From contig CAMAWF010000001.1 in assembly GCA_945861895.1 (NCBI GenBank), positions 46,333 through 110,332 on the forward strand: a DNA stretch of 64,000 nt, written 5' to 3'. Made by a program: the position numbers and the translations under genes. Position 1 is the first letter of the stretch. Each line of letters begins with the position of its first letter. The notes beneath the pieces are model-generated. The model worked only from the letters and a program-made list of their open reading frames with translations, was not told where the DNA came from and ran no database searches. The stretch is from Rhizobium sp. Q54. GTDB lineage: Bacteria > Pseudomonadota > Alphaproteobacteria > Rhizobiales > Xanthobacteraceae. Below, piece by piece: positions 1,249-24,109 of the stretch.

Positions 1249-4200
1249 GCGTCTCGTCGCCCTTCATTCACCGGCCGATTGCGACCTCGCTGCTCGGCAT
1301 CGCGGTGATGCTCGGCGGCGCGCTCGGCTACTGGTGGCTGCCGGTGTCGGCGCTGCCGCAGGTGGACTTCCCGACCATCCAGGTCACCACGCAATTGCCG
1401 GGCGCCAATCCGGACACCATCGCCTCGCTAGTGACGGCGCCGCTGGAGCGGCAGTTCGGGCAAACCCCTTCGCTCTCCACCATGACGTCGTCGTCGAGCT
1501 ACGGCATCAGCCAGATCACGCTGCAATTCGATTTGAGCCGCGACATCGACGCCGCCGCGCAGGACGTGCAGGCCGCCATCAACGCCGCCGGTTCGACGCT
1601 GCCGCGAAATCTTCCCTATCCGCCGCTGTATTCGAAGGTGAATCCCGCCGACGCGCCGATCGTCACGCTGGCGCTGACCTCGGACACCACATCGCTGCGC
1701 GCGCTCAGCGACATCGCCGATACCATGATGACGCCGCGGCTTTCCGAGGTGACCGGCGTCGGCCGCGTCTCGGTGCAGGGCGGCATCCGGCCCGGCATCC
1801 GCATCCAGGCCGATCTCGCGCGGCTCGCCGCCTACAATATCGGGCTGGAAGACCTGCGCACCGCCATCGTCGGCGCCAATGTCGCCGGCCCCAAGGGCGC
1901 GCTCGATGGCGCGCATCAATCCTATACCATTGCCGCCAACGACCAGATCGCGGCGGCGGACGCCTACAAGACCATCGTCATCGCGTTCCGCAACGGCGCG
2001 CCGGTTCTGCTCGGCGATGTCGCCAATGTCGTCGAGGGCCTGGAGAACACCAAGGTCGGCGGCTGGTATCAGGGCGTGCCCGCGATCGTGGTCGACGTGC
2101 AGCGCCAGCCCGGCGCCAACGTGATCCAGACCGTGGAGCGCGTGCGCGGCGAACTGCCGCGGCTGCAGCGCGCGATGCCGGCGGGCGTCAAGCTCACCAT
2201 CGTCAATGACCGCACCGTCACCATCCGCGCCTCGATCCGCGACGTGCAATTCACGCTGGTGCTGAGCGTCGCGCTGGTGGTGCTGGTGGTGCTGATATTC
2301 CTGCGCACGGTCCGCGCCACCATCATTGCCGGCGTCGCACTGCCGCTCTCGCTGGTGGCGACCTTCGGCGCGATGTGGTTCTGCGGATTTTCGCTCGATA
2401 ATCTTTCGCTGATGGCGCTGACCATCGGCACCGGCTTCGTGGTCGACGACGCCATCGTCATGATCGAGAACATCGTGCGCCACATGGAAAAGGGCGAGCG
2501 GCCGCTGCAAGCGGCGTTGCGCGGCGCGCGCGAGATCAGCTTCACCGTGATCTCGCTCACGGTGTCGTTGATCGCGGTGTTCATTCCGCTCTTGTTCATG
2601 ACTGGACTGGTGGGCCGCATGTTCCACGAATTCGCGCTCACGCTCACCATCGCCGTGGTGGCGTCGATGGTCGTGTCGCTGACGCTGACGCCGATGATGT
2701 GCAGCCGGCTGCTGCGCCCGCATGTCGAGCGCAAAAGCTCCGCGCTGGCGCAGACGTTAAACCGCTGGGTCGACCGCACCGTCGAGCTTTATCGCGAAAG
2801 CCTGGAATGGGTGTTGCGCCATCAGCAGGCAACTTTGGTGACGACGCTGATCACGCTCGTTGCCACCGTCCTGCTCTATATCGCGATCCCCAAGGGTTTT
2901 CTGCCGTTGCAGGATACCGGCCTGATCGTGGCGGTGACCGAAGCCGGCACGGATGTTTCCTTTGCCGAGATGACGCGCCGGCAGCAGGCGGTGGAAGCCG
3001 CGATCCGATCCGACCCCGAGGTTACTGGCATCGTCTCCGTCGTCGGCGTCAGCCCGATCAATGCCACGCCCAATGCCGGCCGCCTCGTCATCACGCTGCG
3101 CCCGCGCGGCGAGCGCAGCGCGCGGATGAACGAGATCGTGCCGCGGTTGCAGGCGAAAGCCGGCGCGGTGCCGGGAATGAACGTCTATTTCCAGCCGGTG
3201 CAGGACGTGCAAATCAGCACGCGTGCCAGCCGCGCGCAGTATCAATACACGCTGGTCGGCACCGACACGCAGGAGGTTTCGGACTGGTCGCTCAAGCTCG
3301 CCGAAAAGCTGCGCGCGTCGCCGGTCATGCGCGAGGTCGCCTCCGAAGCGCAGGAAGGCGGATTGCGGGTGATGGTCAATGTCGACCGCGAAAAGGCCGG
3401 ACGACTCGGCGTCTCCATGCAGAACATCACCGACACGCTCAACAATGCCTTCGGCCAGCGGCAGATTTCCACCATCTACGCGCAGGCCAACCAATACCGC
3501 GTGATCCTGGAAGCAATGCCGCAATACCAGCGCGACCCCGCCGCGCTCTCGAAGCTCTACGTCACCGGCAGCAGCAGCACGACCTCAAGCAGCACGACGG
3601 TTGCGACATCCACCGTTCCCGGCGCGACCTCTGGCGCCGCCAGCAGCGCCAGCAGCGCGACCTCGACCAGCACCAGCAGCACGCAGGTGCCGCTGGCCGC
3701 CTTCGCCAGTTTCGAGCGCGTCTCGGCGCCGCTCGTCATCGCGCATCAGGAGCAGTTTCCCTCGGTGACCATCAGCTTCGATCTCGCCCCACGCGCGGCA
3801 TTGAGCGACGCGGTGGCGGCGATCTCGGCCGCCCAGCAGGACATCGGCTTGCCGAATTCAGTGATCGGCAGCTATTCCGGCGATGCCGCCGAATTCCGCA
3901 AGTCGCTCGCCAACGAGCCGTGGCTGATCCTCGCCGCCGCCATCACGATCTACATCGTGCTCGGCGTCTTGTACGAGAGCTTCATCCATCCGCTCACGAT
4001 CCTCTCCACTTTGCCCTCGGCCGGCGTCGGCGCGCTGTTGGCGCTGATGCTGTTTGGCTATGACCTCTCGGTCATCGCGCTGATCGGCATCGTGCTGCTG
4101 ATGGGCATCGTGAAGAAAAACGCGATCATGATGATCGACTTCGCGCTCGAAGCCGAACGGCATCAAGGGCTATCGCCGCGCGAGTCGATCGTGCAGGCTT

Positions 4201-19970: not shown

Positions 19971-20446
19971 CCGAGAAAACCGGCATCACGCTCACCATCA
20001 ACGGCCGCGATCACGCCATCCGCGTCGAGCCGCGCCGCACGCTTGCCGACGCCATCCGCGAGGATTGCGGACAGACCGGCACCCATATCGGATGCGAGCA
20101 CGGGATTTGCGGCGCCTGCACCGTCATCGTCGATGGCGAGCCGGTGCGCTCCTGCCTGATGTTCGCCGTGCAAGCGGCGGGCAAAATAATCCGCACCGTC
20201 GAAGGTCTCGCCGATGGCGACAGACTGCATCCGATGCAGGAGGCCTTCATGCAGCACCACGGCCTACAATGCGGATTCTGCACGCCGGGATTTTTGATGC
20301 TGGCGGTCGGCGTGCTTGAGCGCGAGCCGAACATCAGCGACGACGACCTGCTCGACGTGCTGTCATCCAATCTCTGCCGCTGCACCGGCTATCAGAACAT
20401 CGTCAAGGCGGTGCGCGCCGCCGCCGCCGAGATGCGCGGGAAATGA
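19967..20446 (+). CDS. Molybdenum hydroxylase 2Fe-2S small subunit (CoxS-like)
   Basis: CEHGICGACTVIVDGEPVRSCLMFA and CGFCTPGFLM...LCRCTGYQNIVKAV. Confidence 0.95.
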   Translation: MTEKTGITLTINGRDHAIRVEPRRTLADAIREDCGQTGTHIGCEHGICGACTVIVDGEPVRSCLMFAVQAAGKIIRTVEGLADGDRLHPMQEAFMQHHGLQCGFCTPGFLMLAVGVLEREPNISDDDLLDVLSSNLCRCTGYQNIVKAVRAAAAEMRGK

Positions 20447-22725
20447 CGGCCCCGGCCAAATTCATCGGCCGCTCCGTCCCTCGCCTGGAAGACCGGCCGC
20501 TGCTCATGGGTCGGGGCCGGTTCGCCGCCGACATTTCGTTTCCCAGCCAATTGCACATGCGCGTGGTGCGCTCCGGCCATGCGCATGGAAATATTCTCAG
20601 CATCGACACCACAGCCGCCCGCGCCTTGCCCGGCGTGCATGCGGTGTGGACCGCAGATGACGTCGCCGACATTCCGCCGATCGACTTTCGCCTCACCCGC
20701 GTCGAAGGCCTGCAGCCGTACCGGCAGCGCGTGCTGGCAAGCGGCCGGGTGCGCTATGTCGGCGACCCGGTGGCGGCGATTTTTGCCGAAGACGCCTACG
20801 CCGCCGAGGATGCCGCCGATCATGTCGCCGTCGCGGTGGAAACCTTGCCGGCGATTCTGCGCGCCGACGATGAGCCGCAGGAATTCCTGCCCGGCCATTC
20901 CACCGAGCCGGCGGAGGTCCGCAAGGGATACGGCGACGTGGACGCCGCTTTCCGCGCCGCGCATTCCGTGGTCGCGCTTGAACTCATCATCGGACGGCAT
21001 TCCGGCGTGCCGATGGAAACGCGCGGCGCCATCGCGCGTTATGACGCCGGCCGCGACATGCTGGAAATGTACGGCGCCGCGAAAGTACCGCACTGGAATC
21101 GCGACCAGATTGCCCGCCTGCTGGGACGCGCGCCGTCCTCGGTCAATCTTTTCGAATGTCATGTCGGCGGCGGGTTCGGCGTGCGCGGCGAGCTTTATCC
21201 CGAGGACGTGCTGGTCTGCGCCGCGGCGCTGCGGTTCCAGCGGCCGGTGAAATGGATCGAGGACCGGCGGGAAAATCTCATCGCCGCCAACCACTCGCGC
21301 CAGCAAATCCACCGCGTGCGCGCGGCCATCGACGCCGAAGGCCGCATCCTCGCCATCGACGACGAATTTTTCCATGACCAGGGCGGCTATGTGCGAACGC
21401 ACGGCGCCACCGTGCCCGACCTCACCGCCGCCATGCTGCCCGGCCCCTATCGCGTGCCGGCCTACCGCGCGCGCGGACATATCCGCCTCACCAACAAGAC
21501 GCCCGGCGGCACCTATCGCGCGCCGGGACGTTTCGAAAGCACATTCGTGCGCGAACGGCTGCTCGACGCCGTCGCCGCCAAAGTTGGGATCGACGTTGTC
21601 GAAGTACGGCGGCGCAATCTCATCACCAAGTCGGAAATGCCTTTTACGCGCGGGCTCGACACGCTCGGGACCGATATCGTCTACGACTCCGGCGACTACG
21701 CCCGCCTGCTCGACAAGGCGCTGGCGGCCATCGGCTGGGACGCGACGCAGAAAAAACTGCACGCCCGGCGCGCGGCGGGAGAAAAAGTCGGCATCGGCCT
21801 TGCCATGTTCGTGGAAAAAAGCGGGCTCGGCCCGTTCGACGGCGTGCATGTCAAGGTCGAGCCTTCCGGCACAATCGAACTCGTCACTGGAGCGGCCTCG
21901 GTCGGCCAAGGCGTCGAAACCGTGATGGCGCAGATTTGCGCCGACACGCTCGGCGTCCACTACACAAATGTGCGCGTGATCCACGGGCAGACCGATCGCA
22001 TCGAAAAAGGCTTCGGCGCGTTTGCCTCGCGCGTGACGGTCATGACCGGCGAGGCGACGCGGCTTGCCGCGGTCAGCCTGCGCGCCAAGGCGCTCGCCGC
22101 CGCCGCCGAGCTGATGCAGACGCCGGTGGACGCGCTCGACATCGTCGATGGCGAAGTCGTGCGCACCGGCGGCAAGGCGGGGCCATCGATGAGCCTGGCG
22201 GATTTGGCGCGAACTTTGACGAACAGCGGCGGGCTTGCCGCCGAAGGCCGGTTTGAGTTCAACCACATGGTCTACCCTTACGGCGTGCATGTGGCGGTGA
22301 CGCGCGTCGACGGCGACACCGGCGGCGTCGTTGTCGAGCGCTTTCTCGTCGCCTACGACATCGGCCGCGCGGTCAACCCAATGCTGGTGGAAGGCCAGAT
22401 CGCCGGCGGCGTCGTGCAGGGAATCGGCGGAACGCTGTACGAGGAATTTCTTTACGACGAGAACGGCGAGCCGCTGTGCGTGAGCTTCGCCGATTATCTG
22501 ATGCCGACCGCGCACGAGACCCCGCGCATCGAAATCATCCTGACGGAAGACGCACCGAGTCCGCTCAATCCATTGGGTCTTAAGGGCGCAGGCGAAGGCG
22601 GCGCCAATGCGGTCGGCGCGGCCATCGCCGCCGCCATCGACGACGCGCTAGGCCAGCCCGGCGCGGTGACGCAATTGCCGGTGTCGCCGCAGCGGCTCAA
22701 GGCGATGCTTAAATCGTCATCGTGA
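20443..22725 (+). CDS. Molybdenum hydroxylase large subunit (xanthine dehydrogenase family), copy 2
   Basis: HVGGGFGVRGELYPEDVL, GGTYRAPGRFESTFVRERLLD, LKGAGEGGANAVGAAIAAAIDDAL; 4-bp overlap with small subunit. Confidence 0.93.
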   Translation: MTAPAKFIGRSVPRLEDRPLLMGRGRFAADISFPSQLHMRVVRSGHAHGNILSIDTTAARALPGVHAVWTADDVADIPPIDFRLTRVEGLQPYRQRVLASGRVRYVGDPVAAIFAEDAYAAEDAADHVAVAVETLPAILRADDEPQEFLPGHSTEPAEVRKGYGDVDAAFRAAHSVVALELIIGRHSGVPMETRGAIARYDAGRDMLEMYGAAKVPHWNRDQIARLLGRAPSSVNLFECHVGGGFGVRGELYPEDVLVCAAALRFQRPVKWIEDRRENLIAANHSRQQIHRVRAAIDAEGRILAIDDEFFHDQGGYVRTHGATVPDLTAAMLPGPYRVPAYRARGHIRLTNKTPGGTYRAPGRFESTFVRERLLDAVAAKVGIDVVEVRRRNLITKSEMPFTRGLDTLGTDIVYDSGDYARLLDKALAAIGWDATQKKLHARRAAGEKVGIGLAMFVEKSGLGPFDGVHVKVEPSGTIELVTGAASVGQGVETVMAQICADTLGVHYTNVRVIHGQTDRIEKGFGAFASRVTVMTGEATRLAAVSLRAKALAAAAELMQTPVDALDIVDGEVVRTGGKAGPSMSLADLARTLTNSGGLAAEGRFEFNHMVYPYGVHVAVTRVDGDTGGVVVERFLVAYDIGRAVNPMLVEGQIAGGVVQGIGGTLYEEFLYDENGEPLCVSFADYLMPTAHETPRIEIILTEDAPSPLNPLGLKGAGEGGANAVGAAIAAAIDDALGQPGAVTQLPVSPQRLKAMLKSSS

Positions 22726-22742: not shown

Positions 22743-22827
22743 TCACCCCAGCTTCTTGAGCAGCTTGCCGATCGTGCGGTGTTCCTCGGCTGAAAGCGGC
22801 GCCAGCGTTTCCGCGGCGACCTCGGCA
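22743..22827 (-). pseudogene. Detached copy of the 3' end of a marR-like gene
   Basis: About 85 bp nearly identical to 23645-23729 (3' end of the intact marR-like gene); encodes ...LAPLSAEEHRTIGKLLKKLG-stop. Confidence 0.85.
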
Positions 22828-22830
22828 TCC

Positions 22831-23160
22831 TCACGCAACCCGCCGCGCTGCATGTGCAGCGCGCTTGCGCCGGGGACGAACGTTGACGCTCACCTCAACA
22901 TGCTGATCGAGCTTGCCGAGGATCGTAATCATCCGGTCGATCGTGAAGCGATCCAGCTTCACGTTGCGAATGCGCGAGAATTCCGAAGCGGCGACACCGG
23001 TCAGACTTTCCGCTGCACGCACGCTCAGCTTGCGCTTGTCGAGCACGCCGATGATTTTAGCAGCAAGGATGGCGCGCGCCTGTTCAAGATCGGCGTTTGG
23101 ATCGCCAAAGTCACGGAACACATTGCCGCTGCCGCGCACGAACGCAAGTTTCCCTTTCAT
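22831..23160 (-). CDS. higA: HigA-like XRE-family antitoxin
   Basis: NVFRDFGDPNADLEQARAILAAKIIGVLDKRKLSVRAAESLTGVAASEFSRIRNVKLDRFTIDRMITILGKL; start overlaps the toxin 3' end by 4 bp. Confidence 0.85.
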   Translation of the reverse strand: MKGKLAFVRGSGNVFRDFGDPNADLEQARAILAAKIIGVLDKRKLSVRAAESLTGVAASEFSRIRNVKLDRFTIDRMITILGKLDQHVEVSVNVRPRRKRAAHAARRVA

Positions 23161-23501
23161 CGCAAGGCCTCCTTCAATCGTTTGAGCCGCTCCCGAATAA
23201 TATTGATTTCGGCCTGTGATGTTTTGATTCCGGTCTTCGATTTCTTCTGGAAGACGTGGATTACCCAAAGGTCCATGCCGATCTGCACCGCATAGATGGC
23301 GCGAAAAGCATCGCCACGATGCCGGAGCGCAATCTCGAACACGCCGCCATTGACGCCCTTGAATGGTTTTGCCTTGTCGGATTTTCCGCCCTCGGCCGCA
23401 ACGGTCAGCGCGCGGCGCATATCGAGCTGCACGTCAGCGGGGAAGCTCTCGAAATCTTTCAGAGCGGCCTTCAACCACGAGACCGGTCTCGTGTTTCGCA
23501 T
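23157..23501 (-). CDS. higB: HigB-like (RelE/ParE superfamily, phage Gp49-like) toxin
   Basis: WLKAALKDFESFPADVQLDMRRAL...AKPFKGVNGGVFEIALRHRGDAFRAIYAVQ..LWVIHVFQKKSKTGIKT. Confidence 0.88.
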   Translation of the reverse strand: MRNTRPVSWLKAALKDFESFPADVQLDMRRALTVAAEGGKSDKAKPFKGVNGGVFEIALRHRGDAFRAIYAVQIGMDLWVIHVFQKKSKTGIKTSQAEINIIRERLKRLKEALR

Positions 23502-23506
23502 CGGAA

Positions 23507-23530
23507 GATATTGACAAATATGTCAACATC
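23507..23530. promoter_or_regulatory. Palindromic operator candidate upstream of higBA
   Basis: GATATTGACA-AATA-TGTCAACATC: perfect TTGACA/TGTCAA arms plus 3 further paired outer bases, about 6 bp upstream of the higB start. Confidence 0.7.
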
Positions 23531-23644
23531 CGTCAAGTCGGTGCCGGCATTGCGCCGCCGATCCTGGACCGACAATCCTCGGAGACGATGGCGCATGAGC
23601 GCTGCACACCGGCTATGGCGTTGCGTCCGGAAATCGGAACGGCA

Positions 23645-24109
23645 TTACCCCAGCTTCTTGAGCAGCTTGCCGATCGTGCGGTGTTCCTCGGCCGAAAGCG
23701 GCGCCAGCGTTTCCGCGGTGATCTCGGCGGCGACCTTGACCGCGGCTTCGGTCACGTCGCGGCCCTTGTCGGTGAGCGTCACGTCCATGCGGCGGCGGTC
23801 GTTCGGGTCGTTGCAGGTGATGACAAAGCCGCGCAGCCGCAGGCGGTCGACCACGCCCTTGATGGTGGCGCCGTCGAGATAAATCAGCCGGCCGAGCTGG
23901 TTTTGCGAGCAGCGGCCGGCCTCGCGCAGCTTGGCCAACGCTGCAAACTGCGTCTGCGTCAAATCCTCGATCATGCGCGACATGAAGATCGCGGTGTGCC
24001 GCTGCATGGCGACGCGCATCAGGAACCCCACCTGCACGTCGAGCAGGTAGCCCGGTTGTTCGGCTGAACTGGCCTTGGCCGGCAGCACTTTCAATTTTCC
24101 GCGCAGCAT
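23645..24109 (-). CDS. MarR family transcriptional regulator
   Basis: QNQLGRLIYLDGATIKGVVDRLRLRGFVITCNDPNDRRRMDVTLTDKGRDV winged-helix pattern. Confidence 0.92.
   Translation of the reverse strand: MLRGKLKVLPAKASSAEQPGYLLDVQVGFLMRVAMQRHTAIFMSRMIEDLTQTQFAALAKLREAGRCSQNQLGRLIYLDGATIKGVVDRLRLRGFVITCNDPNDRRRMDVTLTDKGRDVTEAAVKVAAEITAETLAPLSAEEHRTIGKLLKKLG

Follow-up and report, generated by a model that had tools for sequence, protein, structure and literature searches.

Toxin-antitoxin modules at duplicated gene 3' ends suggest entry into chromosomes without an integrase

How does a toxin-antitoxin module come to lie between an intact gene and a second copy of that gene's 3' end? The question is raised by a higBA locus in the stretch of DNA analysed here (the window, 64 kb), in which the minus-strand gene order is livF, marR, higB, higA and a marR fragment, followed by a convergent gene for the large subunit of a Mo-hydroxylase (xanthine dehydrogenase/CODH-like; 20443-22725, plus strand; Pfam MoCoBD_1/2 and Ald_Xan_dh_C). 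Intact marR (23645-24109, minus strand, 154 aa, PF01047) contributes its last 84 bp (23645-23728) as the proximal repeat copy, and the distal copy (22743-22826, minus strand) is a fragment consisting of the last 27 codons and a TGA stop. The direct repeat is identical at 79 of 82 positions (22745-22826 / 23647-23728, start-to-start spacing 902), or at 80 of 84 when both stop codons are included; the stop itself differs (TCA versus TTA, plus strand), as do three more sites. The earlier note had reported this repeat and its altered stop, and both are real, with coordinates right to within 1-2 bp. The Blast E-value in this geometry is about 5e-35 and the repeat is therefore not due to chance, an explanation that the matched controls described below also rule out.

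Roughly 820 bp separate the marR repeats, and higBA are the only genes there. The toxin gene, higB (Gp49/RelE-like; 23157-23501, minus strand, 114 aa), matches PF05973 (E 1.1e-18) and the antitoxin gene, higA (HTH_37; 22831-23160, minus strand, 109 aa), matches PF13744 (E 1.7e-19), both well above the cut-offs for the Gp49/HTH_37 type of HigBA. A perfect palindrome, TTGACATATTTGTCAA, lies just upstream of higB (23511-23526), and this sequence (TTGACAAATATGTCAA) is probably an autoregulatory operator. DNA homology to other higBA loci spans both genes and the operator (about 22871-23537) and excludes the outer flanks; the intergenic DNA between higB and the marR stop (23502-23644) is thus not common to other higBA loci past about 23537. 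These data agree with the earlier description of the segment as a higB-higA pair with its own operator and nothing else. Toxin-first order, overlapping genes, an upstream palindrome and both Pfam domains are shared with known type II modules of this family, and judged by its sequence the predicted module has nothing unusual about it. Within the inserted segment there is also a 19-nt inverted pair, 89% complementary (22853-22871 / 23590-23608), one side of which falls outside the higBA core.

The absence of an integrase, also claimed earlier, was borne out, as the interval between the repeats contains no integrase or recombinase gene. The 64-kb window holds no tRNA gene and gave no match to Rfam, and on these three grounds an integrase- or tRNA-linked element was ruled out. 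With no transposase at the marR/higBA insert and a target duplication of 84 bp, the insert does not qualify as a DNA transposon. A phage origin of the module was also rejected, since phages carry only distant HigB relatives (at most 38%). HigB relatives occur in 343 plasmid records; none of the six plasmid HigB loci examined has a strong flanking repeat, and one has a 35-bp match. In one genome (G072, locus L059) we observed a higA 81% identical to that of the window with no higB found beside it, possibly a solitary antitoxin.

Related genomes indicate what the site looked like before higBA arrived. Of the 36 other genomes of the genus that were searched, 34 have exactly one marR match, and livF adjoins the relatives' marR wherever the contig and the fetched flank allow the neighbours to be seen. 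The nearest relative (G021, 79% protein identity) has the empty site that the earlier note had proposed looking for: the Mo-hydroxylase stop, 3 bp and the marR stop, so that the Mo-hydroxylase gene is the native, convergent neighbour of marR and its junction in G021 is the same as that with the fragment in the window. The fragment thus keeps the ancestral place beside the Mo-hydroxylase gene, which argues that the site was empty and that higBA came later. Because relatives carry a single marR and the stops nearly abut at the readable ancestral junction, the locus is, on comparative sequence evidence, an insertion at the 3' end of marR that left marR intact, rather than a decayed second marR. 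A full tandem pair or decayed duplicate was rejected, given one marR match per genome and a left copy that comprises the gene's 3' end only. Of the two origins entertained earlier, insertion with marR reconstituted or left whole therefore stands, and the decayed duplicate does not.

The same layout recurs at other HigBA modules. We sampled HigB loci from GTDB species genomes, viral contigs and the host's family, and found repeats at E below 1e-5 flanking 26 of the 184 loci tested. Under a stricter count, restricted to loci with long flanks (n=173) and to E below 1e-15, strong direct repeats lay close to the module on both sides at 12 of 173 HigBA modules versus 4 of 495 control positions in the same loci (Fisher P=4e-5); about 90% of HigBA modules have no strong flanking repeat. 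The strict 12 are not all gene ends, some being noncoding, and the coding cases given here include some outside the 12. REP-like palindromes (L207, L212 and L270), an IS end (L121) and a noncoding repeat (L100) were excluded as support for gene ends, though some of them are in the raw counts. Duplicated 3' ends at higBA belong to marR, malate synthase, uvrD (in two species, G000 and G035), a PEP-mutase-family gene, a PIN-domain gene, tctC, a flavin oxidoreductase gene, rpsA including its terminator (L271), a trpD2-like gene of the glycosyltransferase-3 family in a Methylobacter MAG and a repressor gene in the single-contig genome G154. The malate synthase case is a second higBA in the same genome as the window (L063), flanked by 128 bp of the gene's 3' end. 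At a fumarase gene (L209), the one such case, the duplicated part is the 5' end. The host gene stays intact in these insertions, and the repeats, 82-84 bp at marR and 56-413 bp elsewhere, fall in the range of a long target duplication (a direct repeat of about 50 to several hundred bp, with an empty single-copy site in related genomes, as in G021). The suggestion that other higBA copies might be flanked by 3'-end duplications of their neighbours thus proved correct many times over.

Two further observations concern individual loci. At L233 (G000:C31), the DNA enclosed by the flavin oxidoreductase 3' end and its partial copy carries higBA together with a gene that looks YcgN-like by eye, and inserts can therefore include genes other than toxin-antitoxin genes. 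At three loci in single-contig genomes (L414, L416 and L420), HigBA is flanked by repeats of 333-398 bp with only about 68% identity, which are perhaps old insertions or paralogous neighbours.

Other toxin-antitoxin families occupy such sites in this genome as well. In an unselected ~0.78 Mb we found six further gene-3'-end duplications around short inserts, four of which enclose other toxin-antitoxin families: ParE with an antitoxin, DUF433-DUF5615 (PIN-like), BrnT-BrnA at pepA, and, at clpS, a 3.1-kb cluster of several toxin-antitoxin-like genes (G000:C4:53027-56383), whose ParE- and HigBA-like labels come from reading the sequences, not from Pfam. (Gene names throughout rest on Pfam where a Pfam match is given and on inspection of the sequence elsewhere.) The duplications at a ribonucleotide reductase gene and at uvrA enclose no recognised toxin-antitoxin gene. 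Repeats arising from paralogous genes in this survey were at most 80% identical. The selected contig C62 carries a further gene-end duplication enclosing BrnTA and DUF433; it is a 413-bp duplicated 3' end of a ketopantoate-reductase-like gene (L063, 1996-2408 / 3424-3836), and it adjoins the malate synthase/higBA insertion, such that two neighbouring genes have been hit. No gene-end duplications of this kind were present in 400 kb each of genomes G004 and G055, indicating that the host genome is unusually rich in them and that their abundance varies by lineage.

One host gene has been used repeatedly. At 6 of 22 uvrD loci in the genus (L334 in G018, L349 in G013, L338 in G007, L346 in G006, L251 in G035 and L234 in G000), a spare uvrD 3' end lies 0.55-0.95 kb downstream of the gene, and the insert varies by species: HigBA twice, a HicB-like gene, a DUF29-like gene, a small secreted protein (these three labels by eye) and one unknown; part of this set is not of toxin-antitoxin type. 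The uvrD 3' end is therefore an insertion hotspot in the genus. The uvrD-higBA-fragment arrangement is common to two separately assembled species, at 88% identity over 844 bp. In the single-contig genome G011, the same small secreted gene as in G018 lies at uvrD, and the uvrD fragment there is nearly erased.

To what extent the two copies of a gene end behave as products of one duplication can be read from their differences. Under a null model of duplication at insertion followed by decay, with selection acting on the intact gene and none on the fragment, 62.5 of the 149 changes in 14 copy pairs are expected to be synonymous; 85.8 were, a value reached in 0 of 3000 simulations (P<1/3000). Divergence over the pooled loci is thus biased toward synonymous changes, with an excess that falls to P=0.006 without the strongest (ketopantoate-reductase-like) pair, and allowing for selection on the intact copy weakens the conclusion relative to a simpler null for all but that pair. 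The ketopantoate-reductase-like pair (413 bp, 28 changes, about 21.5 of them synonymous) is by itself enough to reject the null. Where its copies differ (28 sites), 19 orthologues match the fragment and the intact copy about equally often, and the differences are unevenly spread, clustering around a 143-bp identical tract (P=0.0002), a pattern that suggests recombination. Both observations are consistent with a pair of functional alleles of separate lineages that homologous recombination has united. The closest relative sides with the intact copy at 15 sites to 7, which suggests, not significantly, that the fragment is the foreign copy. At marR, the 4 differences (2 synonymous) are too few to separate xenology from simple duplication, and among loci the position of the divergent part within the repeats is inconsistent (the 5' part in some, the 3' part in others).

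Our data lead us to favour, by a modest measure, homologous recombination that uses the gene 3' end as its anchor, the module usually having come in with the gene end of a related lineage; we infer this route, and its application to the marR locus, from the patterns above. In this scenario, a self-contained higBA addiction module would have arrived by horizontal transfer and joined the chromosome at the marR 3' end with no integrase acting, the incoming DNA having carried higBA joined to the marR 3' end of a related strain. The repeat could then have been made by a single crossover of a circular intermediate or by one-sided recombination, either of which would leave intact marR followed by higBA, with a second marR 3' end next to the native downstream gene. 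One-sided events of this sort, called homology-facilitated illegitimate recombination, occur in naturally transformable bacteria, with homology on one side and illegitimate joining on the other; they can add foreign DNA beside the homologous anchor and are known from laboratory transformation. An incomplete literature search found no paper naming this process together with toxin-antitoxin modules, and no donor with higBA beside marR was found. Since the host gene is never broken, insertion would be nearly neutral and the addictive module retained.

The closest competitor, to which we assign a clearly smaller though real chance, is insertion with long target duplication, in which a staggered or template-switched break duplicated the 84-bp target at the moment of insertion and the differences arose later. 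It predicts the same architecture with repeats of similar length (order of 100 bp; PMC3874152, PMC3031569, PMC1643837), accommodates the duplication of a terminator (rpsA, L271) and of a 5' end (fumarase, L209), and fits the marR pair and several recent pairs (tctC and pepA, 98-99%). Recombination with a foreign gene end is preferred over it because of the pooled synonymous excess, which persists without the best pair, and because the ketopantoate-reductase-like fragment is no more derived than the intact copy.

The other explanations fare far worse. The 3' ends of genes are frequent targets of integrative elements, which rebuild them and come to be flanked by repeats, and a remnant of such an element, with the marR 3' end as attachment site and all but higBA deleted, would match the layout; we consider it very improbable, as no integrase was present at any case read in detail, the insert is usually one toxin-antitoxin module only, and the target genes are many and unrelated, with repeats of 35 to over 400 bp and differing start points. 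A tandem duplication of the whole of marR, followed by replacement of one 5' part by higBA, would account for the partial copy and has even less to recommend it: the 34 genus members with a match have one marR each, two full tandem genes (the arrangement that, with a chance repeat, the earlier note had named as counting against insertion) were not seen, and a two-step history confined to marR is unlikely when the layout recurs at many unrelated genes. Least credible of all is an assembly or binning artefact that fused two strains' alleles. With 194 contigs the genome is a draft, and numerous positive loci come from fragmented assemblies, yet the layout also occurs in single-contig genomes (G154, at two loci, and G390), and the shared uvrD arrangement comes from separate assemblies.

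The recurrence of this layout in the genome and elsewhere suggests that toxin-antitoxin modules use gene ends as entry points into chromosomes, with no need of an integrase and no damage to the host gene. How chromosomal modules enter without a mobile element is a long-standing question. An intact gene, a module and a spare gene end together mark a recent entry in the sequence and can be tallied in any genome; they implicate gene ends and homologous recombination in the entry route, a mechanism testable in transformable laboratory strains. As a more speculative extension, which we hold only tentatively, small addiction modules might move as cassettes, each tied to the 3' end of a conserved gene that provides the homology arm. 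Entry by ordinary homologous recombination at gene ends would restore the host gene, and one cassette could later replace another at a given site, as at uvrD; such cassettes would resemble those of integrons but need no recombinase.

Insertion with long target duplication has been described for restriction-modification systems, themselves addiction modules (PMC3874152, PMC3031569, PMC1643837, PMC4978471), and was proposed for restriction-modification genes in Helicobacter pylori (PMC3874152, PMC3031569, PMC1643837; primary reports Nobusato et al. 2000 Gene 259:99 and Furuta et al. 2010 NAR 38:2428, as cited in those three articles). Shared with those cases are an addiction module, the lack of an integrase, a directly repeated target of the order of 100 bp and discovery by comparing related genomes with and without the insert. 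Unlike them, the modules here are type II toxin-antitoxin systems (HigBA, ParE, BrnTA, DUF433/DUF5615) in Alphaproteobacteria and others, the duplicated part is usually a gene 3' end with its stop, and at the best-resolved locus the copies resemble alleles from separate lineages, an outcome not expected if the repeat was created on insertion. In Arabidopsis, single transposed genes are flanked by direct repeats homologous to the target site, and a circle and homologous recombination were proposed (PMC2869330); that case differs from the higBA insertions in concerning plants and no addiction modules. An incomplete literature search found no report of the repeat signature at type II toxin-antitoxin modules. 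These comparisons make long target duplication of restriction-modification genes the closest known system.
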